The position numbers and the translations under genes are program-made. From the NCBI RefSeq assembly GCF_030814995.1, contig NZ_JAUSVX010000002.1, positions 701,785-738,173 on the forward strand: DNA of 36,389 bases. Direction: 5' to 3'. The notes below the pieces were generated by a model. It did not search any database. It was not told the origin of the DNA and saw only the letters and a program-made list of their open reading frames with translations. The stretch comes from Labrys wisconsinensis. GTDB lineage: Bacteria; Pseudomonadota; Alphaproteobacteria; Rhizobiales; Labraceae. Shown in pieces: positions 7,275 to 28,533 of this stretch (position 1 is the stretch's first letter; each line of letters begins with the position of its first letter).

Positions 7275-8315
7275 TCAGGCGGCGGCGCGGCCGCGCTGCG
7301 CCGCGCGGCTCGCGAGGGTGGCGGCGAGGCGCAGCGCGCTCTCCAGGGCGCCGGTGCTCGCCACGCCCTTGCCGACGATGTCGAAGGCGGTGCCGTGCGC
7401 CGGCGTGGTGAAGACCGTGTCGAGACCGGCCGTCACGGTGACGCCGCGGTTGAAGCCGCGCAGCTTGGTCGCGATCTGGCCCTGGTCGTGATACATGGCG
7501 ACGACGCTGTCATACGCGCCGGCGAAGGCCTTGATGTAGACGGTGTCGGCCGGGAACGGGCCCTTGCAGTCGATGCCGCTCGCCGCGGCGGCCTGCACCG
7601 CCGGGCCGATGACCTCGATCTCCTCGCGGCCGAACAGGCCGTTCTCGCCGGCATGCGGATTGAGCGCGGCGACGGCGATGCGCGGCGTCTCGATCCCCGC
7701 CCGCCGCATGGTGCGGTCGACAAGCCCGATCGCCTCGAGGATGCTGGCATGGCTGATCTGGTCGAGCGCGGTGCGCAGCGAGACGTGCGAGGTGACCCGC
7801 GACATCCATTGCCCGTCGAGCACGTTCATCTCGGAGAAATAGCCGCGATGGCCGAGGAGATGGGCGAACATCTTGTGCTCGTCGGGAAACTTCCAGCCGC
7901 CGGCATGCAGGGCCGCCTTGTTGAGCGGGGCGAAGGTGACGGCATCGATCGCACCCGCCTGGGCCAGGCGCACCGCCTCGGCCAGGGTCTCGCCGGTCAG
8001 CCGGCCGGACTCCGGCGAGACGACGCCGCGCGGCAGGCGGCCGGGATCGATATTGCCGAGGTCGAGGAGCGGCGTCGCGGCGTCGTCCCAGTCGATGTCC
8101 TCGATGCTCGATACCGCCCGGACAGCCAGCCGCACGCCCGTATCGCGCTCCCCCATGTCGAGCACGCGGCGGTCGCCGAGGACGAGGATGCGCGCCGCCT
8201 CGCGCAATCGGCCGTCCGCCAGCACGCGGGCACAGAGCTCCGGACCGATGCCGGTCATGTCGCCGAGCAGGAGGGCGATGCGGGGCAGGTCGGGGGAACC
8301 GGCCGGTCGGGACAT
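7275..8315 (-). CDS. pdxA: PdxA-family NAD-dependent dehydrogenase (catabolic PdxA2-like)
   Basis: 346 residues from ATG 8315, which has AGGAGG five bases upstream; the longer frame to 8417 would read through the operator. PdxA hallmarks are present: GDMTGIGPE at the N-terminus, LNPHAGENGLFGREE, and MYHDQGQIATK with the downstream GTAFDIVGKG. PdxA oxidises 4-phosphohydroxy-L-threonine in vitamin B6 synthesis. Paralogues in sugar-acid or aromatic pathways oxidise other hydroxy acids. The pairing with a tartrate-dehydrogenase-like gene and a GntR operator 85 bp upstream favours a catabolic paralogue rather than the B6 enzyme. That preference is inference. Confidence 0.85.
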   Translation of the reverse strand: MSRPAGSPDLPRIALLLGDMTGIGPELCARVLADGRLREAARILVLGDRRVLDMGERDTGVRLAVRAVSSIEDIDWDDAATPLLDLGNIDPGRLPRGVVSPESGRLTGETLAEAVRLAQAGAIDAVTFAPLNKAALHAGGWKFPDEHKMFAHLLGHRGYFSEMNVLDGQWMSRVTSHVSLRTALDQISHASILEAIGLVDRTMRRAGIETPRIAVAALNPHAGENGLFGREEIEVIGPAVQAAAASGIDCKGPFPADTVYIKAFAGAYDSVVAMYHDQGQIATKLRGFNRGVTVTAGLDTVFTTPAHGTAFDIVGKGVASTGALESALRLAATLASRAAQRGRAAA

Positions 8316-8388: not shown

Positions 8389-8412
8389 GTCAACTGAATA
8401 TTGTTGACAATA
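8389..8412. promoter_or_regulatory. GntR-type operator 1, upstream of pdxA-ttuC
   Basis: ATTGTTGACAAT at 8400-8411 is an inverted repeat (ATTGT, 2-nt centre, ACAAT), extended by a T/A pair at 8399/8412. It is the exact reverse complement of the copy at 19296-19307. A second GTCAAC at 8389-8394 forms a wider inverted repeat with GTTGAC at 8403-8408. Read toward pdxA, that element gives TTGACT, a possible -35 hexamer. The site lies 85 bp from the pdxA start. Confidence 0.7.
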
Positions 8413-8460
8413 AGCAATCTGAGGGGGACCTTATGCGCCGTCCGGGGTCGTGAGGCGGTT

Positions 8461-8549
8461 CGTCATGGCCGGACTTGATCCGGCCATCCACGCGAACTCG
8501 ACATGAGCCTGTGTTCGCGTGGATGGCCGGGACGAACCCGGCCATGACG
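8461..8549. repeat. REP-like palindromic element
   Basis: Outer arms CGTCATGGCCGG (8461-8472) and its complement (8538-8549) enclose a perfect 16-bp inverted repeat (8482-8497 with 8513-8528) around a 15-nt loop. Read on the minus strand it encodes MAGFVPAIHA, a peptide I recall from spurious open frames over dispersed palindromes in alphaproteobacterial genomes. It sits in the divergent intergenic region between pdxA and the dehalogenase-like gene. It could act as a hairpin or insulator, but its function is unknown. Confidence 0.8.
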
Positions 8550-8601
8550 GCGGAGAGCGCAGCGCGCTTATCTGCGGACGCATCTTGAGGGAGGACGGCC
8601 C

Positions 8602-9588
8602 ATGCAAAGCCGAACGGGCGCAGCCGCAAGTCCGGCGCAGACCGCGATGCCGCCGCTGGCAGAGCGCCATGCGAGCCTGATGGAGGGCTTCTCCCGGCGC
8701 ACGATCCGCACGAGCGGCGCCGAGATCAACGTCGCGGTCGGCGGCGAGGGCCCGCCGCTCTTGTTGCTGCACGGCAATCCCCTGACGCATGTGAGCTGGC
8801 ACCGGATCGCGCCGACCCTGGCCAGGTCCTTCACCGTGGTGGCCCCGGACCTGCGCGGCTATGGCGACAGCTCCAAGCCGGACGGTGGGCCGGACCATGC
8901 CGCCTACACCTTCCGCGCCATGGGCGAGGACGCGTTCGACGTGATGGACAGCCTCGGCTTCGACAGCTTCGCCCTGGCCGGCCACGACCGCGGGGCGCGC
9001 GTCGGCTTCCGCATGGCGCTGGACCGGCCGGAGCGCGTCAGCCGCTTCTGCGCCCTCGACATCATTCCGACCCATCATCTCCTGACCAACGTGACGCTGG
9101 GCTGGGGCCTGGAGAGCTATCACTGGTTCTTCATGGCGCAGAAGGCGCCCTTCCCCGAGCGGCTGATCTGCGCCGACCTCGACTATTACATCCAGTACAA
9201 GCTCAACAAGAAAGGCGTCGGCCTCGAGATCTTCACGCCGGAGGCCCTGGCCGAATATGCCCGCTGCACCACGCCCGCGCAGATCCATGCGGTGTGCGAG
9301 GACTACCGGGCGACGGTGACGCTCGACCTCGCCATGGACAGCACCGATTTCGGCAAGCGCAGGATCGGCTGCCCGGTGCTGGTGCTGTGGGGCAGCAACA
9401 GCCATGTCGGCCGCCACCTCAAGCCGATCGAGGCCTGGTCGCCCTGGGCCGAGGACCTCAGGGGCTGGGCCATCCCGACCGGGCACTATCCGGCGGAGCA
9501 CCGGCCCGACCTCGTCTACGAAAGCTTCTGGACCTTCTTCAACGGCGGCGAGCCCCGGCCCTATTCGGCCGCGCGGGATGCCGCATAG
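8602..9588 (+). CDS. Fluoroacetate/haloacetate dehalogenase-like alpha/beta hydrolase
   Basis: 328 residues; ATG 8602 follows GGGAGG at good spacing. The alpha/beta-hydrolase layout is clear: HGNP oxyanion loop, DLRGYGDSSKP, nucleophile Asp129 in GHDRGAR, acid Asp153, and base His295 in TGHY. Fluoroacetate dehalogenase residues as I recall them (Asp110, Arg111, Arg114, Asp134, His155, Trp156, Tyr219, His280) map onto Asp129, Arg130, Arg133, Asp153, His174, Trp175, Tyr235 and His295 with nearly constant offsets. The enzyme would hydrolyse haloacetate to glycolate, but epoxide-hydrolase-like relatives share the fold. No halide transporter or glycolate gene is adjacent. The N-terminus is about 19 residues longer than the classical enzyme. 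Confidence 0.82.
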   Translation: MQSRTGAAASPAQTAMPPLAERHASLMEGFSRRTIRTSGAEINVAVGGEGPPLLLLHGNPLTHVSWHRIAPTLARSFTVVAPDLRGYGDSSKPDGGPDHAAYTFRAMGEDAFDVMDSLGFDSFALAGHDRGARVGFRMALDRPERVSRFCALDIIPTHHLLTNVTLGWGLESYHWFFMAQKAPFPERLICADLDYYIQYKLNKKGVGLEIFTPEALAEYARCTTPAQIHAVCEDYRATVTLDLAMDSTDFGKRRIGCPVLVLWGSNSHVGRHLKPIEAWSPWAEDLRGWAIPTGHYPAEHRPDLVYESFWTFFNGGEPRPYSAARDAA

Positions 9589-9655
9589 CGCCGGCGCGTC
9601 CCGGACTTTCGCAACGCCGCCGCCCGGCAGCGGCCTGACCCCGGGCCCCGGCCGG

Positions 9656-10600
9656 TCAAAGCCATGCCTTGATCTGTTGATCCGTGAGGTTCGCACCACA
9701 CAAGATGGTCGCGACGCGGCTGCCGTTCAGCGCAGACGCTTGTGCGAGAACGGCTGCGAGCCCCGCCGCTCCGGCCGGCTCGACGAGGCGGTTCCATGTT
9801 TCATGGGCGAACCGCATCGCATCCAGAATCTGGTCGTCATCGACGAGAACGACGTCGTCGATGGTTTCCTTGAGCCATGCGATCGCCGACGGCACGGGAT
9901 TCCGGACAGCAATTCCGTCGGCGATCGTGCAAGCCTCGCGGGTCGAGATCACTTCACCCGCCTTGTAGGACAGAGCCATGCAGGGCGCGCCCTTTGCGGC
10001 AACGGCGACGACCCTTGTCAGCGGCGATCTCGACTTGAACCAGCACCCTATTCCGGCCGCCAGCGCACCGTTGCCGAGCGGAATGAAAGCTGCGTCGATA
10101 TCTTCGACCTCTTCGGTCAGTTCCGCCGCGATCGTTCCAGCCCCTTCCGCGATGGCTGCGCTCGCACCGTCCTCGACGAACTGCAGATTCCGTTCGCCGG
10201 CGTAGGTCTTGGCGGCTTCCTTGGCAGCGTCGAAGTCCTCCCCGACGAGAAGGACCTCCGCCCCAAACCTGCGCATGGCATCGATCTTCAGCGGATTGGC
10301 CTTCAGGCTCGCGAAGACGACCAGAGGTCGCCCATGCCGCGCGGCATTATAGGCAAGCCCCTGACCAAAGTTCCCGGCCGATGCCGTGACCAGAGGCGCT
10401 CCGGCGTCGGTGAGATCTGCGCAAAAATACCCTGTACCGCGCCCCTTGAAGCTGCGGATCGGGTTGTCCGTTTCGTCCTTTGCGACGAGGGACAGCGCCA
10501 GCCTTTCGGAATGCAGCAGGCTGGTGTTCAGAAAGATCGGATCGATGCGCCTGCGCGCATCCTCGATGTTCGTGGCTGAGAGAGGCGCTTGTTTTGTCAT
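9656..10600 (-). CDS. PLP-dependent threonine/serine dehydratase-like enzyme (fold type II)
   Basis: 314 residues, in the size range of serine racemase and catabolic threonine dehydratase without a regulatory ACT domain. The PLP Schiff-base lysine is Lys52 in RSFKGRG. The substrate/PLP loop SAGNFG is at 74-79 and a glycine-rich phosphate loop (PLGNGALAAGIG) follows. The family eliminates water from beta-hydroxy amino acids, giving 2-oxo acids and ammonia; 3-hydroxyaspartate dehydratases belong here too. It is divergent from an Lrp/AsnC regulator over an 89-bp gap with two palindromes, so it is probably that regulator's target. By eye its third codon positions are less GC-rich than those of its neighbours. 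No strong ribosome-binding site precedes ATG 10600. Confidence 0.85.
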   Translation of the reverse strand: MTKQAPLSATNIEDARRRIDPIFLNTSLLHSERLALSLVAKDETDNPIRSFKGRGTGYFCADLTDAGAPLVTASAGNFGQGLAYNAARHGRPLVVFASLKANPLKIDAMRRFGAEVLLVGEDFDAAKEAAKTYAGERNLQFVEDGASAAIAEGAGTIAAELTEEVEDIDAAFIPLGNGALAAGIGCWFKSRSPLTRVVAVAAKGAPCMALSYKAGEVISTREACTIADGIAVRNPVPSAIAWLKETIDDVVLVDDDQILDAMRFAHETWNRLVEPAGAAGLAAVLAQASALNGSRVATILCGANLTDQQIKAWL

Positions 10601-10621
10601 GAGGAGACATTATGAATTCTC

Positions 10622-10668
10622 TACGCGGAAAAACCGCGTATAAATCAGGCTCATAGCGGATTTTCCGC
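10622..10668. promoter_or_regulatory. Pair of inverted-repeat operators between dehydratase and Lrp/AsnC gene
   Basis: Site A (10622-10640) is a perfect TACGCGG-N5-CCGCGTA palindrome. Site B (10656-10668) is GCGGA-TTT-TCCGC. Both contain GCGGAAAA(A/T)CCGC, on opposite strands. Their centres (10631 and 10662) are 31 bp apart, about three helical turns. This fits cooperative binding by an Lrp/AsnC octamer on one DNA face, controlling both divergent genes. The binding protein is inferred from position. Confidence 0.72.
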
Positions 10669-10689
10669 ATCTATGGTCGAGCGCACGCC

Positions 10690-11151
10690 ATGGACGACAT
10701 CGACCGCACCATTCTTTCGATCCTCCAGGAGACCGCCGACGTTCCCGGCAAGGTCATTGCTGACACCGTCAATCTTTCCACCTCGGCCGTCGAACGCCGA
10801 ATCAGCAAACTGAAGCAGGATGGGGTCATCGAGAAGATCGTGGCGGTGGTCAGTCCGAAAGCCGTCGATCGCACCTTGTCCATTCTGGTCGAGCTGGAAA
10901 TCCAGAACGAACATCGACACACGCTGGAGCAATTCCAGCGGTGGTTGGATCGTGCGCCTGAAGTTCAATCCTGCTGGTATGTCACCGGCGACGTCGACTT
11001 TGTCCTGCTGGTGGTTGTCCGCAACCTCGAAGAATACAATGCCTTTGTCGATCGGCTCATGAATGAACAACAGGCGCTCGTGCGAAAATACAAGAGCCTG
11101 ATCGCGCTCAAAACGATCAAGCATGGCTTGGAGCTTTCCGTCCACGCGTGA
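10690..11151 (+). CDS. Lrp/AsnC family transcriptional regulator
   Basis: 153 residues, the usual length. It begins MDDIDRTILSILQ, the classic Lrp start, with a winged HTH at about residues 5-60 (recognition region STSAVERRISKLKQDGVI). A RAM/AsnC ligand domain follows (WYVTGDVDFVLLVV at about 97-110). Lrp/AsnC proteins bind amino acids and often control an adjacent amino-acid enzyme. Here the divergent PLP dehydratase is the obvious target, so the effector may be its hydroxy-amino-acid substrate. Two matched palindromes lie in the shared promoter region. Confidence 0.93.
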   Translation: MDDIDRTILSILQETADVPGKVIADTVNLSTSAVERRISKLKQDGVIEKIVAVVSPKAVDRTLSILVELEIQNEHRHTLEQFQRWLDRAPEVQSCWYVTGDVDFVLLVVVRNLEEYNAFVDRLMNEQQALVRKYKSLIALKTIKHGLELSVHA

Positions 11152-11290
11152 CGGCTCTTCGCGGCGATCTCGACGAAATCGATTCGACTGTTCCGACGGA
11201 GATGGAAGCGACGATAAGAATTGACGTGGCCAGATCACCGGCATGAGGTCGCGGCGATCGTTTTCGGCTCAACCACCCCAGGGCTCGGCC

Positions 11291-11617
11291 ATGAAGAACA
11301 TTCAGGTCATCGACGGTGCCGACAACTGCACCTTCAGCATCTTCCAGGCTACGAATGCGGAATTCGCTTTGCTTTTCCCGGCCGAGGGGCAGGATCTTCA
11401 ATTTGCCGAAGACCTCGACGCACAGGCCCTGAACGCGCTCGGGCCGGTCTGGGATCGTCCCATCCCCAAGCGGGACGTCCAGGGCATCCACGGGACCTTG
11501 TTCTACGGCTTTGCCGGCAAGCGCAGCCATTTTCCGGCGTCGAAGCAGGAGGCGGACTGGCCGGCGGACGCTCTCAATCCGGCGCAACGACGTCGGCATG
11601 TCCGAGGTCCTCGATAG
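11291..11617 (+). CDS. Conserved hypothetical small protein
   Basis: 108 residues from ATG 11291 (MKNIQVIDGADNCTF). An upstream in-frame ATG at 11243 gives a less protein-like N-terminus. It has no signal peptide or membrane helix. It is acidic in its first half and contains KRDVQGIHGTLFYGF followed by a basic C-terminus (RRRHVRG). I recall similar small proteins in Rhizobiales but know of no function. It converges on the dehydrogenase gene with only 13 bp between stops. A promoter was not identified in the 139-base gap before it. Confidence 0.6.
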   Translation: MKNIQVIDGADNCTFSIFQATNAEFALLFPAEGQDLQFAEDLDAQALNALGPVWDRPIPKRDVQGIHGTLFYGFAGKRSHFPASKQEADWPADALNPAQRRRHVRGPR

Positions 11618-11630
11618 GCCCGGCTGTCGT

Positions 11631-12722
11631 CTATGCGAGATCTGCCGCCGCCTCCCGCTCGATCGCTCCGACGATGGCATCCGTCATGCCTTGCGTGCCG
11701 GTGGCGCCGCCGATGTCGCCGGTGCGGGTCTGCGGCGAAGCCAGCGCCGTCGCGATGGCGCGCTGCATCAGCGCCGCGGCCGTCACGGCTTCGCCGACGC
11801 CCCGGTTGAGCCCGAGCCATTCCAGCATCATCCGGGTGGATTCGATCATCGCATAGGGATTGGCGATGCCCTTGCCGGCAATGTCGGGGGCCGAGCCGTG
11901 CGTCGCCTGCGCCATGGCGATGTCGCCCTCGCCGATGCACAGGCCCGGCGCCATGCCGAGGCCGCCGACCAGGCCGGCCGCCTCGTCGGACAGGATGTCG
12001 CCGAACATGTTGGTGGTCACCACCACGTCGAAAATCTGCGGCTCGCGCACCAGGCGCATGGCGAAGGTATCGACGATGACCTCGTCGACCGCGACGTCGG
12101 GAAACTCGCGCGCGGCGCGGTAGCACTCCTCCACGAACATGCCGCAGCCGAGCTTGAACACGGTGTTCTTGTGGACCAGCGTCAGCTTCTTGCGCCGCGA
12201 GCGGGCGATGGCGAGCGCCGCCCTGGCGACGCGGTAGCTGCCGGCGCGGGTAATGACGCGGACCGAGATGGTGACGTCCTCGGTCGGGCGGAACTCGCCG
12301 CAGCCGGCGACGACGTTGCGGTCCGGCTGGAAGCCCTCGTTGTTCTCGCGCACGATGACGAGGTCGATGTCGTCGCGCAGGGCGCCGAGGCCGGGGAAGG
12401 CGCGGGTCGGGCGCACATTGGCGAAGAGGCCGAAATGCTTGCGCATGATCGGGTGCGGATTGATCGCACCCGGCCCCTTGGGATAGGCCTGATGGCCGAT
12501 CGGCCCGAGGATGAAGCCGTCCATGCCGGACAGCGCTTCGAGGGTGCCTTCCGGCAAGGTCGAGCCGTGGCTGTCGAGAGCGCGGCGCCCGATCGGCATC
12601 GGCCTCCAGTCGATGGCAAGGCCGGCGCGGGCCGAGGCGGCGCGGGCGACGCGCACGGCCGCCGGCACGATCTCGTGGCCGATATCGTCCCCCTCGAGGA
12701 CGCCGATGGTGAGAGGAGCCAT
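11631..12722 (-). CDS. Isocitrate/isopropylmalate dehydrogenase family protein
   Basis: 363 residues with the superfamily signatures: GDDIGHEIV at the N-terminus, NVRPTRAFPGL (substrate arginines), VRENNEGF, KNTVFKLG, and TNMFGDILSDEAAGL with HGSAPDIAGKG. It is clearly a different branch from the ttuC-like paralogue at 6185-7258. The family oxidises 2-hydroxy-dicarboxylates with loss of CO2. It follows prpD1 by only 11 nt, so the two are one operon. Substrate cannot be assigned; isopropylmalate synthesis is unlikely because no leu genes are near and the context is catabolic. Confidence 0.85.
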   Translation of the reverse strand: MAPLTIGVLEGDDIGHEIVPAAVRVARAASARAGLAIDWRPMPIGRRALDSHGSTLPEGTLEALSGMDGFILGPIGHQAYPKGPGAINPHPIMRKHFGLFANVRPTRAFPGLGALRDDIDLVIVRENNEGFQPDRNVVAGCGEFRPTEDVTISVRVITRAGSYRVARAALAIARSRRKKLTLVHKNTVFKLGCGMFVEECYRAAREFPDVAVDEVIVDTFAMRLVREPQIFDVVVTTNMFGDILSDEAAGLVGGLGMAPGLCIGEGDIAMAQATHGSAPDIAGKGIANPYAMIESTRMMLEWLGLNRGVGEAVTAAALMQRAIATALASPQTRTGDIGGATGTQGMTDAIVGAIEREAAADLA

Positions 12723-12733
12723 GCGCGCTGCCC

Positions 12734-14149
12734 TCAGCCGGCCCGGATGACGAGCGCCATCAGCGGCGCGATCGAAGGCAGCGTCTCGAGGTCGCGCACC
12801 CGCGCCACCACTTCGTCCGCCGCGGCCCGGCCGAGCCGGGCATGCCCGGCGCAGTCGCGGAACTTGTCGGCGACCTCCTCGTAGCTCATCGGATCGGCCG
12901 GGCTGCCCTTGCCGAAATCGGCCCGGCCGTGGACGGTGCGGCCGTTGCGCAGGGAGATGTCGATGATCGTCGTCATCTTGTGATAGCCGGCCCGCTCGGC
13001 CTCCTCGTCGACGACGAAGTCGATCCTTTCGATCATCGCCTTGACATCGGGACGCTGCGTCGTGGGGTCGGTGAACTCGGCCAGGCCCGCCCTGCCCTCC
13101 AGCAACAGGATGGCCATGCAGAACTCCATCGAGAACTTGGCCTGCAATTCGTCATGCGGGCGATGATGGATCAGGGCGTTCGGCATGTTCGAATTGGTGC
13201 CGACGCGCACGCGCTCCACGTCCGCTACCTCGATGCCGTTCTCGCGGATCAGGCGCAGCATCTCGGTCATGCCGGGATGGGTCAGCGAGCCGGATGGGTG
13301 CGGCTTGATCGAGATGCCGGGGTCGGCGAAGGTCCAGGGCGCGCCGAGGCGGCCATGGATGGCGGCGAGGTCGTAGCCGCCGCCGGCCGCCCGGAAGAAG
13401 CCGCGCGGCGCCTCCAGGATCCTGTCCGTCGCCGTCCAGCCATAGCCGGCGAACTGCGCCGCCGCGACGCCGCTCTCCGAGGCGCGGCCGGCATGGAAGG
13501 GCTTGGTCATCGTGCCGAAATTCTCGCGCAGGCCGGCCGACTGACTGCCGGCGATCGACAGGGCCCGCGCCGTGGTCTCGCGGTCGAAGCCCATCAGCGC
13601 CGCGCTGGCGGCGGCGGCGGCGAAGGTGCCGCAGGTGGCGGTGGCGTGGAAGCCGGTCTGGTAGTGGCGCGGATCGATCGCCTCGGCAATCTTGCACTCG
13701 ACCTCGACGCCGAGATGGTAGGCGAGCATGACGTCGCGGCCCGAGGCGCCGGTGAGCTCGCCGACGGCGAGCGCGGCCGGCAGGGCCGGCGCCGTCGGAT
13801 GGGTCAGGAGGCCATAGACGCGGTCGGCGGCGACGGCGAGCTGGGTGTCGTCATAGTCGTCGGCATGGATGCCGACGCCGTTGGCGAAGGCGGCGAAGCG
13901 CGGCGCCACCTTGCGGCCGCCGCCGATCACGGTCGCGGCGCCCGCGGCGAGGCCGAGCTCGTCGAGATGCCGGCGCACCAGCGCGCCGCTCTGGGCCACC
14001 GAGCCGGACAGGGCGAGGCCGATGCCGTCCAGAATGGATTTCTTGCCGAGGGCGACGACCGCCTCGGGCAGGTCGTCCGCCTTCGTGCTCACGACGAAGT
14101 CGGCGACATGGTTGGTGAGTTCGACGCCGGCGCGGGCGATATCCTGCAT
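12734..14149 (-). CDS. MmgE/PrpD family protein 1
   Basis: 471 residues from ATG 14149, preceded by AGAGGAAGG; a longer open frame exists but would extend toward the operator region. The N-terminal all-helical MmgE/PrpD domain holds the family motif as IHADDYDDTQ, then HPTAPALPAALAVGE. The C-terminal lid domain carries KPHPSGSLTHPGM and AKFSMEFCMA. Family members include 2-methylcitrate dehydratase, cis-aconitate decarboxylase and iminodisuccinate epimerase; all act on polycarboxylates without a metal. It is the first gene of a two-gene operon with the dehydrogenase at 11631-12722 and has a GntR-type operator 164 bp upstream. Exact reaction unknown. Confidence 0.88.
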   Translation of the reverse strand: MQDIARAGVELTNHVADFVVSTKADDLPEAVVALGKKSILDGIGLALSGSVAQSGALVRRHLDELGLAAGAATVIGGGRKVAPRFAAFANGVGIHADDYDDTQLAVAADRVYGLLTHPTAPALPAALAVGELTGASGRDVMLAYHLGVEVECKIAEAIDPRHYQTGFHATATCGTFAAAAASAALMGFDRETTARALSIAGSQSAGLRENFGTMTKPFHAGRASESGVAAAQFAGYGWTATDRILEAPRGFFRAAGGGYDLAAIHGRLGAPWTFADPGISIKPHPSGSLTHPGMTEMLRLIRENGIEVADVERVRVGTNSNMPNALIHHRPHDELQAKFSMEFCMAILLLEGRAGLAEFTDPTTQRPDVKAMIERIDFVVDEEAERAGYHKMTTIIDISLRNGRTVHGRADFGKGSPADPMSYEEVADKFRDCAGHARLGRAAADEVVARVRDLETLPSIAPLMALVIRAG

Positions 14150-14312
14150 GGCCTTCCTCTCGCAGCGGGCGCGGCCGCGGGGATCACCCGCCGAGCCGTC
14201 GCACCAAGGTCTCCAGGCGCCGCAAGGCGCCCGAGCGCGGTGGCGAAGCGTCATGCCGAGACGGCAACACGCTCCGTCGCCTTCTCAGGGAAAGTGGACC
14301 TACGAATGGTAA

Positions 14313-14324
14313 ACTGTCAACAAT
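14313..14324. promoter_or_regulatory. GntR-type operator 2, upstream of prpD1
   Basis: ACTGTCAACAAT; the reverse complement ATTGTTGACAGT differs by one base from operators 1 and 3. On the minus strand it contains TTGACA pointing at prpD1, so it may overlap a -35 box. It lies between the prpD1 start (14149) and the gntR1 stop (14346). Confidence 0.65.
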
Positions 14325-14345
14325 TTTCTGACGACAACGCGATCC

Positions 14346-15053
14346 CTAACGCTTCGCCGGGCTTCGCGCCAGCGCGGCCCGGTGCGTGCGCTGCATGCCG
14401 TTGACGATATGGGCGCGGCCGGCGGCGAAGGCGCGCGCGGCATCATGCGCCGCGACGGCGTCGAGAAGGGCGCGATGCTCGGCATTCGAGACGTCGAGCA
14501 CGTCGCCGCTCGACAGGGCGCGGTAGCGCTGGATGTGCAGCTCACGGGCGAGGCTGAGATAGATCTGCGCCAGGCGGGCATTGCCGCACATCCGCGCCAC
14601 CTCCGAATGGAACTCGAGGTTGACCGGATAGTACTGGCTGACCTCGCCCAGCCTGGCGAGCTCGTCCATGCGGTCGACCAGGGCCCTGAGCTTGGCGACC
14701 TCGGGCTCGGTGATGCGCTCGGCGAGCAGCATGGCCATGCAGGCGAAGACACCTGCCCGCGCTTCGGAGACCTCGCGGGCCTCGCTCTCGCTGAGCTCGC
14801 GGACGAAGAAGCCGCGGTTGGGGATGATCTGGATCAGGCCGAGGGCGGCGAGCGCGCTGCAGGCCTCGCGGATCGGCCCGCGGCTGACGCCGAGGCGCTG
14901 GGCGAGGGCGTTCTCGTTGATGCGCTCGTTCGGCGTGAACTCACCCTCGACGATCATCCGCTCGATCTCGGCCTGCACCACGTTGGCGAGCGAGCGCGTG
15001 CGCAGGAAATCGATCGGGGAGAAGCTCGGCGCGTCGGCGGGGCTGTCGCTCAT
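14346..15053 (-). CDS. GntR family regulator 1 (FadR subfamily, FCD domain)
   Basis: 235 residues from ATG 15053, preceded by GGGAGAG; a weaker in-frame start at 15089 adds 12 residues. An N-terminal winged HTH (about 20-80: FTPNERINENALAQRLGVSRGPIREA) is followed by an FCD ligand domain with likely metal/ligand histidines in NLEFH and NAEHRALL. It is closely related to the second regulator at 20566-21249: both share NEN.LA.R..VSRGP, NRG..VR, YYP.NL.FH and VSN.EHR. FCD regulators of this type are usually repressors released by carboxylic acids. It sits downstream of operator 2, and the TGTTGACA palindromes are its probable targets. Confidence 0.92.
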   Translation of the reverse strand: MSDSPADAPSFSPIDFLRTRSLANVVQAEIERMIVEGEFTPNERINENALAQRLGVSRGPIREACSALAALGLIQIIPNRGFFVRELSESEAREVSEARAGVFACMAMLLAERITEPEVAKLRALVDRMDELARLGEVSQYYPVNLEFHSEVARMCGNARLAQIYLSLARELHIQRYRALSSGDVLDVSNAEHRALLDAVAAHDAARAFAAGRAHIVNGMQRTHRAALARSPAKR

Positions 15054-15287
15054 GGCCTGCTCTCCCGCCGGATCGCCGGAACACGGCACCGCGCGGCCGG
15101 CGATGTGTATCCTTCATGTCCACCGCCCATGTCCGGATCCCCCTTCTTCAACGGCGAGGCCAGCACTGCGATCGACTCCTGTTCCCGATGCGTTGCCAGC
15201 CATCACTCGGATGGTGCCGCATCTTGTCAAGCGCCGGGCGAGATTTCATGTGTCCGAGCTCCGAAACGGCGGCCGGGCCGGGCGGCC

Positions 15288-17033
15288 TCAGGTCGTCCCC
15301 TCCCTGGCGCCCGGCCCGCCCAGGACCGGCACCCGGTTGGCGATGAAGACGACGGTGAAGGAGACGACGAGAAGCAGGATGCCGAGCACCGAGATCGCGC
15401 CGAAATCGCCGCTTTCGTTGAGATCGTAGATGATCACCGAGACCAGCTTGGTGTTGGCCGTCGTCAGGAGGATGGTCGCCGACAATTCGCGGATGGTGCC
15501 GATGAAGACGAAGCACCAGGCCGCGACGATGTTGGTGCGCAGGAGCGGCGCCGTGATCTGCCACAGGCTCCTGAGGCGCGTGGCGCCGAGGATGCGGCTC
15601 GCCTCCTCCAATTCCGGATGCACGCCGCTGAAGGCGGCCGAGAGCTGCTGGTAGCCGGCCGGCAGCTCCAGGGTGAGAAAGGCGATCAGCAGGATCCACA
15701 GCGTGCCGTAGAGGCGGAACGTCGGATTGGCATAGGCCAGGAACAGGCCGACGCCGAGCACGATGCCGGGGACGGCGATCGGGGCGGTGGCGAGCAGGCC
15801 GAGCCAGCTCGTGCCGGCGACCGGGCGCCGCGCCACGAGATAGGCGATGACGAGCGCCATGGCCGTGGCGATGGTCGCCGTCATCAGGCCGAGCACCAGC
15901 GTGTTCCAGATGGCGAGCCGCGTGCTGGAGAAGTCGAACAGCACGAACTCGAAATTGTGCAGCGTCAGGCTCTCCCACGTCAGCGGCTCGGCGATGGTGT
16001 GGGTCAGCGCCGTCTTCAGGAGCGCCGCATAGGGGAAGATCACGGTGAGGCAGAGGATCAGGACGACATAGGCCCAGGCGAGCCAGGCCCAGCGCCCGAG
16101 CCGCACGCGGCGCGCCGCGCCGCTCTTGCCGCCGAGCACGGTATAGCCGCGGCGGCCGAGCAGCCATTTCTGCCCCTGCAGCAGGAGCACCGTGACGACG
16201 AGCAGCGGCAGGGCGCTGGCGGCCGCGAGGTCGAGGCGCGGCGGGAACTGGAAGAAGCTCCAGATCTTGGTGGTGATGACGTGGAAGCCGGCCGGCAGGG
16301 CGAGGATCGCCGGCGAGCCGAACATGGTCAGCGCCTGCACCACGGCGACCAGCGAGCCGGCCAGCATTGCCGGCAGCACCATCGGCAGGGTGATGCGCCT
16401 GAGCGTCGCGCCCGGCCTGGCGCCAAGGATGGCGGAGGCCTCCTCCAGGTCCGACGGCACCCTGTCCAGGGCATTGGCCACCAGGGTGAAGACGAAGGGG
16501 AAGGAGTAGCAGGTGACGGCGAAGACCAGGCCGGGGAAGGAGAAGATGTTGAAGAGGTAGTCGGAGGGATCGGCGCCGAAGGCCCAGCGGTAGATTGCGT
16601 TGAGGATGCCGCTGTTCGGCGCCGCCAGCATCTCCCAGGCAAGGGCGCCGAGGAAGGGCGGCGTGACGAAGGAGGCGGTGACGAGGCTGCGGATGAAGCG
16701 CCGCCCCGGCATGTCGGTGCGCGCCACCAGCCAGGCGAGCGGGGTTGCGACCAGGCAGGAGAAGAAGCCGACGCCGGCGGCCAGCGCGAGCGCGATCAGG
16801 AAGGCGCGCCGGATGGCCGGATCGACCAGCAGGCGGCCGAAATTGGCCAGCGTCGGCATGCCGCTCTTGTCGACCAGGCTGTACCAGGCCAGCCAGAACA
16901 GCGGCAGCAGGACCAGCACGCACAGGATGGCGGCGAGCAGGAGGAACAGCGGTGTCGAGAGATCGAGACGCCGCGCCGGCCTGCCGCCCGCGCCGCCGAG
17001 GGTCAGTGTGGTGCTGGTCACCGTCTGCCTCAT
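15288..17033 (-). CDS. Fused double permease of an Fbp-type ABC transporter
   Basis: 581 residues with about 12 membrane segments arranged as two binding-protein-dependent permease modules in one chain. Each has its own EAA loop: EEASAILGARPGATLRRITLP in the first half and EEASRILGATRLRSLWQIT in the second. This fused layout is typical of FbpB-like iron permeases and related importers. The start ATG 17033 overlaps the stop of the binding protein (ATGA). It is the last gene of the ATPase, binding protein, permease operon. Substrate is not shown by the permease; the surrounding organic-acid genes make a carboxylate or a metal-carboxylate complex plausible. Confidence 0.9.
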   Translation of the reverse strand: MRQTVTSTTLTLGGAGGRPARRLDLSTPLFLLLAAILCVLVLLPLFWLAWYSLVDKSGMPTLANFGRLLVDPAIRRAFLIALALAAGVGFFSCLVATPLAWLVARTDMPGRRFIRSLVTASFVTPPFLGALAWEMLAAPNSGILNAIYRWAFGADPSDYLFNIFSFPGLVFAVTCYSFPFVFTLVANALDRVPSDLEEASAILGARPGATLRRITLPMVLPAMLAGSLVAVVQALTMFGSPAILALPAGFHVITTKIWSFFQFPPRLDLAAASALPLLVVTVLLLQGQKWLLGRRGYTVLGGKSGAARRVRLGRWAWLAWAYVVLILCLTVIFPYAALLKTALTHTIAEPLTWESLTLHNFEFVLFDFSSTRLAIWNTLVLGLMTATIATAMALVIAYLVARRPVAGTSWLGLLATAPIAVPGIVLGVGLFLAYANPTFRLYGTLWILLIAFLTLELPAGYQQLSAAFSGVHPELEEASRILGATRLRSLWQITAPLLRTNIVAAWCFVFIGTIRELSATILLTTANTKLVSVIIYDLNESGDFGAISVLGILLLVVSFTVVFIANRVPVLGGPGAREGTT

Positions 17034-18076
17034 GTTCCGAAATACTGCTCGTATTTCTGCTTGATGGTGTCGACCGCATCGCGCACGGCGGCGGGATCGG
17101 AATAGATCAGCTTGATCTGCGACAGCGGCGTGCGCGTCGCCTTCTCCTTGATGTCGGGCCGGACCGAGCGCAGGCCGCCGAAGTCGTAGTTCAGCTGCTG
17201 GGCCTCCTGGGTGAACATGAAGGCGTAGAACAGCCTGGCGGCGTTGGGATGCGGCGCGTGACCGAGGATCGCCGCATTGCCGAAGGCGATCGAGGTGCCC
17301 TCGGGGGGATAGACCACCTTGATCGGCACGCCCTTATCCTGAAGGATGAAGACGTTGTATTCGTTGCCGTCCGCCTGGATCGGCCGCTCGCCCTGCGACA
17401 GGATCTTGGGCGGCTCGGTCGAGGACTGGACCTGCATGATGCCCTGGTGGCCGAGCTTCTCGAAATAGTCCCAGCCCAGGAGCTGGCTCATCGCATAGGT
17501 CGCGGTCATGACGTTGCCGCTGTAGCCGGGATGCGACTTGACGAGCTTGCCCTTGTATTTGGGGTCGAGAAGGTCGGTCCAGGTCCTGGGCGCGTCTTCC
17601 GCCTTCACCAGGTCGGAGCGGTAGGCGAGGACGGTCAGGGTGCAGCGGAACGCGGCATATTGCCCGTCGGGGTCGCGGTCCTTCTCGGGCCAATACTTGG
17701 CCACGTCCTCGGGGACCGCGGGGCTGAGCCAGCCCTGGTCCTTGAACACCAGGAAATGCGCGGCGTCCGAGGTCTCGATCACGTCGGCATTGTAGACGCC
17801 GCTGGAATATTCCTGGCCGATGCGCTGGAAGACGCGTTCGGAGCCGGCACGCTCGACCTGGACGCTGATGCCGGGATATTTCGCCTTGAAGGCGGCCCCG
17901 AGCTTCTCGGCCACCTGCACGTCGGTCGAGGTGTAGTAGACGACGTGGCCCTCCTTGGTGGCCGCGGCGACGAGGTCCGATGTGACGGGATAGGGGGCCG
18001 GGGCGCCCGCCGACGCCGCCTGGCTCAATGCCAGGCCGCCGACGAAGACGGCCGCTGCGATCATGGTCCTCGACAT
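17030..18076 (-). CDS. Periplasmic binding protein of an Fbp-type ABC transporter
   Basis: 348 residues from ATG 18076 (GGGAGGG upstream). A signal peptide ends at about residue 23 (AASA/GAP) with no lipobox cysteine. The mature part reads as a class-II type-1 solute-binding protein of the iron(III)/2-aminoethylphosphonate/thiamine group: VVYYTSTD, NADVIETSDAAHF, AYRSDLVKAEDAPRTWTDLLDPKYKGKL. These phrases are common in the group. The paired C-terminal tyrosines that bind ferric iron in FbpA are not obvious, so a ligand other than free iron is possible. It is translationally coupled to the permease. Confidence 0.88.
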   Translation of the reverse strand: MSRTMIAAAVFVGGLALSQAASAGAPAPYPVTSDLVAAATKEGHVVYYTSTDVQVAEKLGAAFKAKYPGISVQVERAGSERVFQRIGQEYSSGVYNADVIETSDAAHFLVFKDQGWLSPAVPEDVAKYWPEKDRDPDGQYAAFRCTLTVLAYRSDLVKAEDAPRTWTDLLDPKYKGKLVKSHPGYSGNVMTATYAMSQLLGWDYFEKLGHQGIMQVQSSTEPPKILSQGERPIQADGNEYNVFILQDKGVPIKVVYPPEGTSIAFGNAAILGHAPHPNAARLFYAFMFTQEAQQLNYDFGGLRSVRPDIKEKATRTPLSQIKLIYSDPAAVRDAVDTIKQKYEQYFGT

Positions 18077-18119
18077 GGATTCCCTCCCTGGTTTCGTGCT
18101 GGCAAGGCTCTGGTCTTGA

Positions 18120-18146
18120 CCGTCGGCCGGGAAAGCCGGCCGTCGG
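18120..18146 (-). other. Intercistronic stem-loop between ABC ATPase and binding-protein genes
   Basis: CGGCCGG (18124-18130) pairs with CCGGCCG (18136-18142) around a 5-nt loop, extended by three more pairs beyond one T-T mismatch. It lies in the 77-nt gap after the ATPase stop. No T-run follows, so it is not a classical terminator. It could shield the 5' end of the binding-protein message and raise its level. Confidence 0.5.
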
Positions 18147-18153
18147 CGCCGAG

Positions 18154-19221
18154 CTAAAGTGCGAGCGCCCGGCAGGTGTCCGGCGGGCAATGGAGCCAGA
18201 CCTGCTCGCCCGCGGGAATGGCGACGTCGACGGGCGCGATCGCCCGCACCGTGTCGCCGCCCGATGTGCTGAGGAGATAGTCGCGGTGGGAGCCGAGATA
18301 GACCTGCCGCACGACCTGCCCGGCCGCCCAGTTGGTGTCCTCGCCCGGCGGCCGCTGCCGCGCCAGCCGGACGTCGTGGTGACGCACCGAGACCGCGGTC
18401 TCGGCGCCGGTGGCAAAATCGCCGCCGCCGCAGCGCAGCACGAGCCCGCCGCCGCAATCGACCGCGTCCGCGCCGACGCGGCGGCCCGAGAAGACATTGG
18501 TGCCGCCGATGAACTGCGCCACGAATTTCGAGCGGGGCCGCTGATAGATCTCCTCTGGCGTGCCGGCCTGCTCGACCGCGCCCCGGTTCATCACCACGAT
18601 CATGTCGGCAGCGGTCATCGCCTCGGTCTGGTCATGGGTGACATAGACGGTGGTGTAGCGGAACTCGTCGTGCAGCCGGCGGATCTCGAAGCGCATCTCC
18701 TCGCGCAGATTGGCATCGAGGTTGGACAGCGGCTCGTCGAGCAGCAGCGTCTCCGGCTCGACGACCAGGGCGCGCGCCAGCGACACCCGCTGCTGCTGGC
18801 CGCCGGAGAGCTCGGCGGGATAGCGCTCGGCGAGCTCGGCCAGGCGCGTGGCCTGCAGGATGCGGCCGACGCGGGTGCGGACGTCCTCCCGGCCCAGGCG
18901 CCGGAGCTTCAGGCCGTAGGCGACGTTCTCGAACACGGTCATGTGCGGCCAGAGCGCATAGCTCTGGAAGATCATCGACATGTTGCGCGCCTCGGGCGGC
19001 TCGCTGGCCCCAGGCGAGGAGATCACCCGCCCGCCGACGCGGATCCGGCCGTCCGAGGGCTGGACGAAGCCGGCGATCAGGCGCAGCGTCGTGGTCTTGC
19101 CGCATCCCGACGGGCCGAGCAGGCAGACCAGCGTGCCCTTTTCAATGGCGAGATCGACCGCATCGACGACCGTCAGGCTGCCGTAGCGCTTGGTCAGGCC
19201 GTCCAGTTCCACAAAGGCCAT
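18154..19221 (-). CDS. ABC transporter ATPase (Fbp/PotA type)
   Basis: 355 residues from ATG 19221, which gives the usual MAFVELDGLTKRYG start; an upstream in-frame ATG at 19296 would lie inside the operator. Walker A is GPSGCGKTT at residues 36-44, with Q-loop FQSYALWPHMT, signature LSGGQQQRVSLARAL, Walker [13 protein letters not shown] and H-loop VTHDQTEAM. A C-terminal TOBE-like domain (about 280-355) is present, as in FbpC and PotA. It is the first gene of the importer operon, 75 bp downstream of operator 3. Confidence 0.92.
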   Translation of the reverse strand: MAFVELDGLTKRYGSLTVVDAVDLAIEKGTLVCLLGPSGCGKTTTLRLIAGFVQPSDGRIRVGGRVISSPGASEPPEARNMSMIFQSYALWPHMTVFENVAYGLKLRRLGREDVRTRVGRILQATRLAELAERYPAELSGGQQQRVSLARALVVEPETLLLDEPLSNLDANLREEMRFEIRRLHDEFRYTTVYVTHDQTEAMTAADMIVVMNRGAVEQAGTPEEIYQRPRSKFVAQFIGGTNVFSGRRVGADAVDCGGGLVLRCGGGDFATGAETAVSVRHHDVRLARQRPPGEDTNWAAGQVVRQVYLGSHRDYLLSTSGGDTVRAIAPVDVAIPAGEQVWLHCPPDTCRALAL

Positions 19222-19295
19222 GCCGTTTCCCTGCCTGCTGCTGGCACATGGGCTTCTTGTTCTTGCCTGCCGTGATGGTTTCCTTAACTCTGTCA

Positions 19296-19307
19296 ATTGT
19301 CAACAAT
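19296..19307. promoter_or_regulatory. GntR-type operator 3, upstream of the ABC transporter operon
   Basis: ATTGTCAACAAT, the exact reverse complement of operator 1 (8400-8411). On the minus strand it contains TTGACA facing the ATPase gene, and a second TTGACA overlaps the adjacent GTCAAT. It lies in the 118-bp gap between the ATPase start and the upstream chromate-transporter stop. Confidence 0.7.
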
Positions 19308-19339
19308 AAACTGAAAACGACCCAATTCAGCGGCAGGAA

Positions 19340-19885
19340 TCAGACCTGCCCGGTCGCGACCGCCAGCCCCAGGAACAGGACCGAGCCGGCCAGCATCAGC
19401 GCCAGGGCGCCAGCCTTCGTGCGCGAGACGGCGACCGCCGCCAGCAGCGCCACGCACCAGGCCACCCACCCTCCCCTGGCGTCGCGCAGCAGCGAGAAGA
19501 CGCTGGAGAGCACCAGCCCGGCTGCGATCGGCGCCAGGCCCTTGGCCACGGCGCGCTGCCAGATCGCGCCGGGATGGCTGTGCCAGAGATAGGCGATGCC
19601 GAAGACGAGCAGCGAGGACGGCAGGAAGATGGCTGCGGTCGCGAGCACGGCGCCGAGCCAGCCCGAGACGTGCCAGCCGATCAGGGTGACGATCAGCGTG
19701 CCGGGGCCGGGCGCCACCCGCGACACGGCGAACACGTCGAGGAAGCCCGGCCCGCTCAGCCAATGATGCTGGTCGACGACGCTGCGCCGAACGTCGCCCA
19801 GGATCGAGACGCCGCCGCCGATCGTCATCAGCGACAGCGGCGCGAAGGTGAGGACCAGCGCGAGGAGCGGATCATCCTTGTTCAC
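19340..19885 (-). CDS. Chromate transporter family protein, second half
   Basis: 181 residues from GTG 19885. The CHR domain shows the family signature near the N-terminus (FAPLSLMTIGGG, then SRVAPGPGTLIVTLIGW) and about five to six membrane segments. It overlaps the upstream CHR gene by 14 bp, forming a short-chain pair. Such pairs work as heterodimers, and known members export chromate. No chrB or other metal-resistance gene is near and the pair sits inside a carboxylate-catabolic cluster, so the real substrate may be another anion. That last point is inference. Confidence 0.85.
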   Translation of the reverse strand: MNKDDPLLALVLTFAPLSLMTIGGGVSILGDVRRSVVDQHHWLSGPGFLDVFAVSRVAPGPGTLIVTLIGWHVSGWLGAVLATAAIFLPSSLLVFGIAYLWHSHPGAIWQRAVAKGLAPIAAGLVLSSVFSLLRDARGGWVAWCVALLAAVAVSRTKAGALALMLAGSVLFLGLAVATGQV

Positions 19886-20456
19886 GGCGGGAGCGTCCGA
19901 AGGCCAGGCCGATGCCGATCGGGGCGAACACCGCGATCAGGACCGGGGTCGAGAGGTGGAAGACGAGGGCACCGACGATCGTGCCGGCGAGGATGGCCAC
20001 CGAGGCGAGATCACCGCCGGCATGGCGCGCCGCCCGGTAGCCGACGGCGAGCGACAGGCCCATGGCCGTGGCCGCCACGCCGGCGAGCAAGGCGCCGGCG
20101 ACGGGCCAGGCGCTGAGGCGGAGCAGCGTCTCGCCGATCAGCACGATGAGGACGGCCGGCGGCAGGATGACGGCCGCGAGCGCGATCAAGGCCCCGCCGG
20201 CGCCGCGGGCACGGTAGCCGAGCCAGATCGCCAGGTTGGCGACGTTGACGCCGGGCAGCGCCTGGCTGACCGCCAGGCCTTCAAGGAACTCGTCCTCCCG
20301 CATCCAGCGCCGCCTGACCACCAGCTCGGCATGCATCATGCCGCTGACGCCGCCGCCGAAGCTGGTGATGCCGAGCTTGGCGAAGACGAAGAACAGGGCC
20401 GCGAGGCTTTGCCGGCCGGCCTCCTCGGCAGGCGGCGACGGGCTGGCTCCGTCCAT
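19872..20456 (-). CDS. Chromate transporter family protein, first half
   Basis: 194 residues from ATG 20456 (TGAGGAG upstream); a longer frame to 20516 lacks support. It contains the CHR motif FAKLGITSFGGGVSGMM and VSQALPGVNVANLAIWLGY, the counterpart of the proline/glycine-rich loop in its partner. About five to six membrane segments are visible. It is the first gene of the two-gene CHR unit and diverges from gntR2; operator 4 lies in the shared 109-bp region, so it may respond to the same regulator. Confidence 0.86.
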   Translation of the reverse strand: MDGASPSPPAEEAGRQSLAALFFVFAKLGITSFGGGVSGMMHAELVVRRRWMREDEFLEGLAVSQALPGVNVANLAIWLGYRARGAGGALIALAAVILPPAVLIVLIGETLLRLSAWPVAGALLAGVAATAMGLSLAVGYRAARHAGGDLASVAILAGTIVGALVFHLSTPVLIAVFAPIGIGLAFGRSRREQG

Positions 20457-20526
20457 GGGCGGCTCCTCAGGGTGAGCTCGGCGGTAGTGCCACGGCCGCG
20501 ACGGCCGTGCAACCACGGTTTTGTAG

Positions 20527-20538
20527 TCTGTTGACAGT
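20527..20538. promoter_or_regulatory. GntR-type operator 4, between the CHR pair and gntR2
   Basis: TCTGTTGACAGT, with CTGT-TG-ACAG (20528-20537) a perfect inverted repeat. It shares the core TGTTGACA with operators 1-3. TTGACA here points toward gntR2, whose start is 28 bp away, suggesting autoregulation. Confidence 0.65.
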
Positions 20539-20565
20539 TTGCAGTAAATAGTAGAACGTCACCAC

Positions 20566-21249
20566 ATGGGCGGCGACCTCGAATTCCTCCAGAACCATTC
20601 CCTGACCAGCGTGCTGCGGCGCGAGATCGAGGCGCTGATCCTGTCGGGCGCCTTCGGCCCGGGCGAGCGCCTCAACGAGAACCTGCTCGCCGCGCGCTTC
20701 GCCGTCAGCCGCGGGCCGGTGCGCGAGGCCTGCCGGGCCCTGGTCGAGAAGGGCCTGCTCGAGCTCGTCCCCAATCGCGGGGTGTACGTGCGCCGGATCG
20801 ACGACCGCCAGGCTGCAGAGCTCTACGACCTGCGCGCCGGCCTGTTCGCCACCGCGGCCCGCCTGCTGGCCGCCACCATCACGGACGCCGAGCTGGACGA
20901 GCTCGACGCCCTGCTTCTCGGCATGGAGGCGGCCGCGGCGCGGCAGTCGCTGGAGGACTACTATCCGCTCAACCTCGCCTTCCACGAGCGGATCCTGAGC
21001 TTTGCCGGCAACGCAAGCCTGCTGGCCGCCTATCGCGAGGCGATCAAGGCGCTGCACCTGTTCCGCGAGCGCGGCCTGCTGCACGGCGGCGGCCTCTCGG
21101 TCTCGAACAGCGAGCATCGCGCCATCCTCGAGGCCCTGCGCGGGCACCGGCCGCTCGCCGCCATGGAAGCGGCGTTCCTCCACGTCCAGAACGGTAAGGC
21201 GCGGATGATCCTGCCCGGCCGCGAGGACGGACAGACCGGGACGGCCTGA
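20566..21249 (+). CDS. GntR family regulator 2 (FadR subfamily, FCD domain)
   Basis: 227 residues. The winged HTH is at about 12-72 (FGPGERLNENLLAARFAVSR, then GPVREA) and the FCD domain holds NLAFH and NSEHRAIL. It is a sister of regulator 1 at 14346-15053, probably from an old duplication. It heads the plus-strand unit gntR2-tctCBA-prpD2-SDR-prpD3, with 37 nt to tctC. A TGTTGACA palindrome 28 bp before its start suggests self-regulation. The effector is presumably the acid imported by the Tct system. Start ATG 20566 lacks a strong Shine-Dalgarno sequence but fits the family N-terminus. Confidence 0.92.
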   Translation: MGGDLEFLQNHSLTSVLRREIEALILSGAFGPGERLNENLLAARFAVSRGPVREACRALVEKGLLELVPNRGVYVRRIDDRQAAELYDLRAGLFATAARLLAATITDAELDELDALLLGMEAAAARQSLEDYYPLNLAFHERILSFAGNASLLAAYREAIKALHLFRERGLLHGGGLSVSNSEHRAILEALRGHRPLAAMEAAFLHVQNGKARMILPGREDGQTGTA

Positions 21250-22330: not shown

Positions 22331-22905
22331 ACGCCCGTTCGACCGACCGCACGTCGCGCGCCACCGTCGGCCGCGATGCGGTCTGCGGCGTGGCGACGCT
22401 CGTCGTCGCGCTCCTCTACTATCTCGGCGCCAGGGCCATCCCGGAGAGCATGCTGGCCGATGCGATCGGGCCGAGCGGGCTGCCGATCGGCTATGCCGGC
22501 GTGCTGGCCGCGCTCTCGGTCGTGCTGATCGCGCGCTCGGTGCTCGGCCGCTCGCCCGCAGCCGACAGGCGGGGCGCGCCGACAGCGAGGCCGCCGGCCG
22601 CCGACGAAGCGGCGCCGGGGCGAAGCGCCCGACCCCGCCGCGGCGAGGACGTCGCGCTGCGCGACGTCGCCCGCGCGGCCGGTGTCCTGGCGATCGGCAT
22701 TGCCTATGTCCTGGCCCTGCCGGCGATCGGCTATCCCCTCGGCATCGCCCTGCTCATATCAGCGATGGTGCTCTACCAGGGCGGCAAGGCCGGGCGCAGC
22801 CTGGCGCTGGCGGCGATCGGCGGCGCCGCGCTGTTCTGGCTGGTCTTCGCCCATGTCCTCCACCTCCCCGTGCCGATGGGCCTGTGGCCCTCGGTCATCC
22901 CCTGA
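22327..22905 (+). CDS. tctB: Tripartite tricarboxylate transporter small membrane subunit TctB
   Basis: 192 residues starting at ATG 22327, overlapping the tctC stop. Four membrane helices are visible: about 17-35, 53-72, 115-140 and 145-175. A Pro/Ala/Arg-rich cytoplasmic linker between helices 2 and 3 (about residues 75-110) is longer than average. TctB subunits are poorly conserved in sequence but keep this four-helix plan between tctC and tctA. It ends 8 nt before tctA. Confidence 0.88.
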   Translation: MNARSTDRTSRATVGRDAVCGVATLVVALLYYLGARAIPESMLADAIGPSGLPIGYAGVLAALSVVLIARSVLGRSPAADRRGAPTARPPAADEAAPGRSARPRRGEDVALRDVARAAGVLAIGIAYVLALPAIGYPLGIALLISAMVLYQGGKAGRSLALAAIGGAALFWLVFAHVLHLPVPMGLWPSVIP

Positions 22906-22913
22906 GGACGGCC

Positions 22914-26532: not shown

Positions 26533-26595
26533 GCCCCCGCGCCGGGCCGGCTCCCTCCCCTTCGAAGATCGATTGCAAGCTCTGGAGAACCATCG

Positions 26596-28529: not shown

Positions 28530-28533
28530 GCAG

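Follow-up and report, generated by a model that had tools for sequence, protein, structure and literature searches.

Regulators of the FadR (FCD) group are described in the examined passages of PMC4494728 (Suvorova et al. 2015) as controlling carboxylic-acid catabolism, and the operators given there for the GntR, HpxS, HypR, MdcY, PrpR and UxuR groups consist of TKGT/ACMA half-sites separated by a 2-nt gap. The same passages report that the residues at positions 28, 39, 40 and 59 of the helix-turn-helix (HTH) domain correlate with operator bases, that the residue at position 39 correlates with the central bases, and that single sites in divergons usually serve both operons. We analysed a window of 36,389 nt from Labrys wisconsinensis (contig NZ_JAUSVX010000002.1; positions below are counted within this window), in which four palindromes built around the word TGTTGACA accompany two FCD/GntR regulator genes, gntR1 and gntR2. 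With a probability of about 0.87, we consider these palindromes to be operators of one FCD/GntR regulator clade that includes GntR1 and GntR2. They have the half-sites and gap of the groups above, and the genes likewise point to carboxylic-acid catabolism. Unlike those groups, the sites have a TG/CA centre that appears to be used as a -35 box, and the regulators carry Gly at the mapped position 39. No group with this gene content is named in the passages of PMC4494728 examined. FCD/GntR operators are thus a known kind, and the locus is a well supported example of ordinary bacterial gene control; the features worth notice are the use of the operator as a -35 box and a predicted leaderless repressor gene.

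Among NCBIfam models, GntR1 matches best to TIGR03338 phnR_burk (phosphonate utilization associated regulator), but its 199.7 bits lie below the cut-off of 271.5 bits, so that it falls outside the family. The binding protein of the neighbouring ATP-binding cassette (ABC) importer weakly resembles 2-aminoethylphosphonate binding proteins, a context like that of phnR_burk. Unlike in that system, the regulated enzymes here are PrpD, isocitrate-type dehydrogenases and a hydrolase. A search of open-licence PubMed Central full texts gave no publication on the operator or on this set of genes.

The sites, their promoter elements and the two regulator genes are as follows.

8389 to 8394, minus strand: second TTGACT, toward pdxA, 8 bp off the site 1 core.
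8394 to 8417, plus strand: site 1, candidate operator flanked by pdxA-ttuC (minus) and the hydrolase gene (plus); core TGTTGACA at 8402-8409, -35 box TTGACA at 8404-8409.
8427 to 8432: -10 box of site 1, weak (GACCTT).
14307 to 14330, minus strand: site 2, candidate operator before prpD1-isodh2; -35 box at 14315-14320, candidate -10 box CCACTT at 14292-14297.
14346 to 15053, minus strand: GntR1, FCD/GntR regulator, the gene after the ABC permease; longest open reading frame (ORF) to 15089.
19290 to 19313, minus strand: site 3, candidate operator before the ABC importer operon; -35 box at 19298-19303, candidate -10 box AACCAT at 19275-19280.
20521 to 20544, plus strand: site 4, candidate operator flanked by chrA1-chrA2 (minus) and gntR2-tct-prpD2-sdr-prpD3 (plus); its -35 box at 20531-20536, candidate -10 box GAACGT at 20554-20559, ATG of gntR2 at +35 from TTGACA.
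20566 to 21249, plus strand: GntR2, FCD/GntR regulator, 44% identical to GntR1.

An original prediction, made from the letters of this DNA, had proposed four matched sites and two sister FCD-GntR genes. Both regulators score above the Pfam thresholds for PF00392 (winged helix of GntR type, N-terminal) and PF07729 (C-terminal FCD), and the four sites lie where they had been placed. The window contains four copies of TGTTGACA, at 8402-8409 (plus), 14315-14322 (minus), 19298-19305 (minus) and 20529-20536 (plus), against 0.11 expected, and none of 100 dinucleotide shuffles reached four. The predicted pair of exact reverse complements across 12 bp proved to be sites 1 and 3. Palindromes with TKGT/ACMA boxes 2-3 nt apart, which mark FCD-subfamily operators (consensus from the passages of PMC4494728 examined), are found at the sites: sites 1 and 3 read TTGT-N2-ACAA, site 2 reads TTGT-N2-ACAG, and site 4 reads CTGT-N2-ACAG, one base off this consensus in each half. 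The gene order in the original prediction was correct as far as it went; it omitted chrA1-chrA2, between sites 3 and 4, and the hydrolase gene at site 1.

We next consider the link between the palindrome and one regulator clade. The genomes sampled, 385 at class level and 397 at order level, came from larger groups; one scan of genome contigs was added. The clade set was 40 external proteins (E 1e-40 or at least 43% identity) in 38 loci; excluded before the counts were six of the eight loci of one search (identity of 37% or less) and a distant GntR of one genome (L091 in G044; 37%, best p 0.05), which stands outside the 38. When a 16-base matrix made from the four window sites alone was compared with 60 Markov copies of each locus, the best match exceeded every copy in 26 of the 38 external clade loci, and six more reached p 0.02. 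The six control loci, around the next nearest FCD genes, gave p 0.13 to 0.25, none reaching 0.1, and some of them carry TTGTATACAA instead. A matrix score of at least 13 within about 1.5 kb of the gene was found for 25 of 40 clade genes versus 2 of 52 other FCD genes (Fisher p 4e-10), and the exact 8-mer at 21/40 clade loci versus 4/52 other FCD loci.

Furthermore, the sites keep their gene-specific positions in other genomes. In two other genomes, L159 and L161, the operator precedes orthologues of the hydrolase (84-85%), the ABC ATPase (74%) and prpD1 (75-78%), and a gntR1 orthologue (75-77%) ends the ABC ATPase gene row. Sites 1, 2 and 3 are each kept in L159, L161, L264 and L265, site 2 before the prpD1 orthologue. 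Site 1 had been assigned to pdxA-ttuC, which it does face; it also faces the hydrolase gene, and it is this gene that it precedes in L159 and L161. Site 4 faces gntR2, as had been assigned, and chrA1-chrA2 as well. Among six plasmid records with a GntR1 relative, five carry the exact core. On the Phyllobacterium zundukense and Neorhizobium plasmids, sites precede the ABC ATPase gene and PrpD, and one lies within the divergent hydrolase / ttuC-pdxA gap; the Phyllobacterium plasmid has two additional sites before a unit of PrpD and tripartite tricarboxylate transporter (TTT) genes. In Rhizobium jaguaris (L268) the site lies between chrA and gntR2-tctCBA-prpD2-sdr-prpD3, in the same divergent layout as site 4. 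The Tct-PrpD-TtuC islands of these three plasmids equal the window in gene sets and sites; in the window, by contrast, the GntR1 module has prpD3 and the GntR2 module next to it, and the order differs. Together, the clade linkage and the gene-specific positions support the original proposal of a shared operator for a GntR regulon over two transporters and several enzymes.

The rest of the host genome was also surveyed. In 8.93 Mb there are 42 copies of TGTTGACA versus 8 of the reversed word, and the 38 outside the window correspond to about 0.15 per window length. By the codon-model gene caller, all four window copies are intergenic, as are 21 of the other 38, and the remaining 17 lie within genes. 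The bare 8-mer does therefore occur in coding sequence, which the original prediction had named as a possible refutation were the palindrome equally common there; the long palindrome clusters in the window and recurs by clade genes, so the proposal is not contradicted. A 20-base pattern, built partly from the window sites and hence circular, was searched with up to three mismatches; among the 11 matches listed, mismatch counts for the four window sites are 0, 1, 1 and 2, and one further place, C3:511206, ties at 2. A 17-base pattern derived only from the sites of other species is not circular. Among its 49 listed matches, a single mismatch is seen at three places, sites 2 and 3 and C6:255458, and two mismatches are seen at site 1. 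Further palindromes of the TGTNNACA type are found close to other FCD genes in this genome, at C2:618752, C2:627755, C6:260403, C19:129395 and C1:997146; their centres differ.

The relation of the operator to the promoter was examined over 55 intergenic matches in 39 sources, of which 45 had an oriented TGTTGACA core, 41 of these external; genes for the orientation were called with a codon model trained on the window's genes. The profile of the oriented cores shows that outer CTG and CAG lengthen the palindrome to about 24 bp, longer than the 12 bp originally proposed, with a consensus of roughly CTG-N-AAAYTGT-TG-ACARTTT-N-CAG. A -10 signal at fixed spacing (16-18 bp was the range considered) appears at 17 bp only: at this distance from TTGACA, T stands at the sixth -10 base in 25 of the 41 external sites versus a 19% background (p about 2e-9), and the A2/T6 pair in 15 of 41, a count that is only 0 to 5 when the spacer is 14-16 or 18-21. 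Of the 38 external sites that could be scored, 33 have TTGACA aimed at the nearest gene and five have it aimed away (p 4e-6, a value that ignores relatedness); three sites are unscorable, among them the two of L089, which the model called poorly, though ORFs place prpD1 and tctC alongside. Window sites 2, 3 and 4 are aimed at the nearest gene. These results strongly back the earlier guess that the operator covers the -35 box, and because the box lies inside the operator, steric repression is likely. A further suggestion, that a TTGAC(A/T) near site 1 points toward the pdxA/ttuC side, is borne out by Phyllobacterium and Neorhizobium, where a second TTGACA is kept at the same spacing of 8 bp from the core and with the same aim. 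Where TTGACA is aimed at a clade gntR as first gene (n=13), the likely start codon lies at +33 to +37 in 11 cases and at +49 and +50 in the other two; window gntR2 has it at +35. From this spacing, gntR2 and the clade's gntR-first genes are predicted to be leaderless, with the start codon at the transcription start if the -10 box is at 17 bp.

The regulators were then compared at their recognition residues. The recognition helices are SRGPIREAC in GntR1 and SRGPVREAC in GntR2, and flanking residues are also common to both. On our own mapping onto the numbering in the examined passages of PMC4494728, positions 28, 39, 40 and 59 are Asn, Gly, Pro and Asn in GntR1 and GntR2 alike. Because the inferred specificity residues are identical, joint control of all four sites by GntR1 and GntR2 is likely. 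The host genome has 86 FCD matches; C7:345264, below the cut-off, was left out, and of the 85 examined the helix was recognisable in 55 and not in 30. Only GntR1 and GntR2 among these 55 combine Asn and Gly at two inferred specificity positions. In other genomes SRGP occurs in 32 of the 39 clade proteins compared (of 40), and SRTP in all six controls. It is only suggestive that Gly at inferred position 39 causes the TG/CA centre, and too few FCD genes of the host genome have a recognisable palindrome for testing this link. In the FCD subfamily, DNA binding changes when the FCD domain takes up its carboxylate or metal ligand; both GntR1 and GntR2 show three His residues in what we take to be the usual surroundings.

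Several observations count against a single-clade operator that doubles as a promoter element. The remaining six of the 38 clade loci gave p 0.03 (twice), 0.05, 0.07, 0.57 and 0.90, none better than 0.02. The motif is not exclusive: the four non-clade FCD loci with the exact 8-mer include L011, which has it as full TTGTTGACAA, and the idea that the word is private to the clade was rejected on these loci. Some loci are closely related, so the counts overstate the independent events. Site 4, the weakest match, has three mismatches to the external 17-base pattern and is indistinguishable from background there. Another FCD gene of the host, C2:618051, has CTGTTGACAA upstream, and the Paracoccus versutus plasmid record has CG-centred palindromes only. 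Finally, of the two genes next to site 1, its TTGACA is aimed at the more distant one, that of the hydrolase, and the window's own -10 boxes are weak.

Since TTGACA lies within every site and the -10 spacing signal is real, the sites might be merely strong -35 boxes of ordinary promoters without an operator, as some other intergenic TGTTGACA copies (for example those of C36 and C40) resemble plain promoters. This is highly improbable, because conservation is palindromic on both sides of TTGACA, far beyond a -35 box, and the motif is tied to one regulator clade, with gene-specific positions kept across genera; we rejected it on the two-sided palindrome and the clade linkage. It is very unlikely, too, that another of the genome's many FCD regulators binds the sites. 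Similar palindromes do occur near FCD genes at C6:260403, C19:129395, C1:997146 and C2:618051, but their two central bases are different or their symmetry is lower; moreover, the Asn and Gly combination is restricted as described above, and other genomes also link the motif to GntR1/GntR2 orthologues.

A division into two separate regulons, with GntR1 on sites 1-3 and GntR2 on site 4, kept apart by protein-level or concentration effects, is possible but doubtful. It would fit the divergence of site 4, the greatest of the four, and the genomes in which the parts occur alone: G096 and G398, where one clade GntR each was found at E 1e-40, have three sites, and the R. jaguaris plasmid, where only the GntR2 type was found, has one. 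However, the two proteins share their inferred specificity residues, site 4 has the same core and flanks, and the Phyllobacterium plasmid, with one clade GntR (on the plasmid record; the chromosome was not searched), nevertheless has sites on both the ABC and the PrpD-TTT sides.

The other genes of the island are listed below.

6185 to 7258, minus strand: isodh1, tartrate dehydrogenase TtuC family (TIGR02089, 575 bits versus a cut-off of 470).
7275 to 8315, minus strand: pdxA-like dehydrogenase (PF04166; under the NCBIfam equivalog cut-offs).
8602 to 9588, plus strand: abh, alpha/beta hydrolase like fluoroacetate dehalogenases.
11631 to 12722, minus strand: isodh2, isocitrate/isopropylmalate dehydrogenase family.
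12734 to 14254, minus strand: prpD1, MmgE/PrpD family, start uncertain.
15288 to 17033, minus strand: ABC importer permease (fused).
17030 to 18076, minus strand: ABC importer solute-binding protein.
18154 to 19221, minus strand: ABC importer ATPase, by domain match, with the start from the codon-model caller.
19340 to 20516, minus strand: the half-size chromate transporter pair chrA1 and chrA2, which separates site 3 from site 4.
21287 to 24404, plus strand: tctC, tctB and tctA, tripartite tricarboxylate transporter; tctC and tctA by domain, tctB as the ORF between, by position only.
24401 to 27930, plus strand: prpD2, sdr and prpD3.

The closest solved relatives of abh are Alr0039 and fluoroacetate dehalogenases (best such chain E 6e-78), and its counterpart in Neorhizobium is annotated as haloacetate dehalogenase. 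Those of isodh2 are homoisocitrate/isocitrate dehydrogenases, and those of PrpD1 are IDS-epimerase and cis-aconitate decarboxylases. GntR1 orthologues with 68-69% identity occur in three rhizobial plasmids. Because none of four same-genus genomes has a GntR1 match at E 1e-40, the island was probably acquired. The chromate-transporter pair accompanies it, being also present on the Phyllobacterium, Neorhizobium and R. jaguaris plasmids. A PALP enzyme and an Lrp-type regulator at 9656-11151 have codon-model scores of 37 and 36, far below their neighbours, which suggests a different origin for them. In translation, the signal-peptide region of tctC (21287-21450) holds a tandem peptide repeat, AALGATIP / AALCATIP. 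Just past prpD3, at 28092-28800 on the minus strand, lie two small adjoining genes, by eye a putative antitoxin of Phd/YefM type and a putative toxin of PemK/MazF type.

In the mechanism that we propose, the asymmetric centre of the roughly 24-bp palindrome would double as a -35 TTGACA that faces the gene under control, followed at 17 bp by a weak -10 box. Operators that overlie the -35 box point to repression: a bound repressor would block RNA polymerase until released by a small ligand, which is probably some carboxylate connected with the substrate taken up. The GntR1 module, with sites 1-3, would comprise the hydrolase and pdxA-ttuC, prpD1-isodh2, and the ABC importer with gntR1; the GntR2 module, with site 4, would comprise gntR2-tctCBA-prpD2-sdr-prpD3 and probably chrA1-chrA2 too. 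Both modules lie in the window, and each regulator would probably bind all four sites, giving one regulon with two possible inputs. Because the two PrpD/dehydrogenase pairs resemble hydratase and decarboxylating dehydrogenase steps and stand with organic-acid importers, the substrate may be a dicarboxylate or tricarboxylate, or else a related compound that is halogenated or epoxidised. We give about even odds to a broader proposal taken as a whole: that in this FCD clade operator and core promoter have become one, the -35 box being the palindrome's asymmetric TG centre and the operator's direction marking the gene served; that repressor-first genes would be on leaderless mRNA and enzyme genes would have normal leaders; and that two sister repressors with the same DNA code and diverged ligand domains would act on one site set as a two-input regulon.

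These findings describe a sharply defined operator code for an FCD group found in several alphaproteobacterial genomes and plasmids. The code links the PrpD family, tartrate/isocitrate-type dehydrogenases, a dehalogenase-like hydrolase, TTT and ABC importers and chromate-type transporters, which narrows the search for the substrate. With two sister repressors on one DNA code, the locus would also be a convenient system for studying how cross-talk between paralogues is avoided or used after modules merge.

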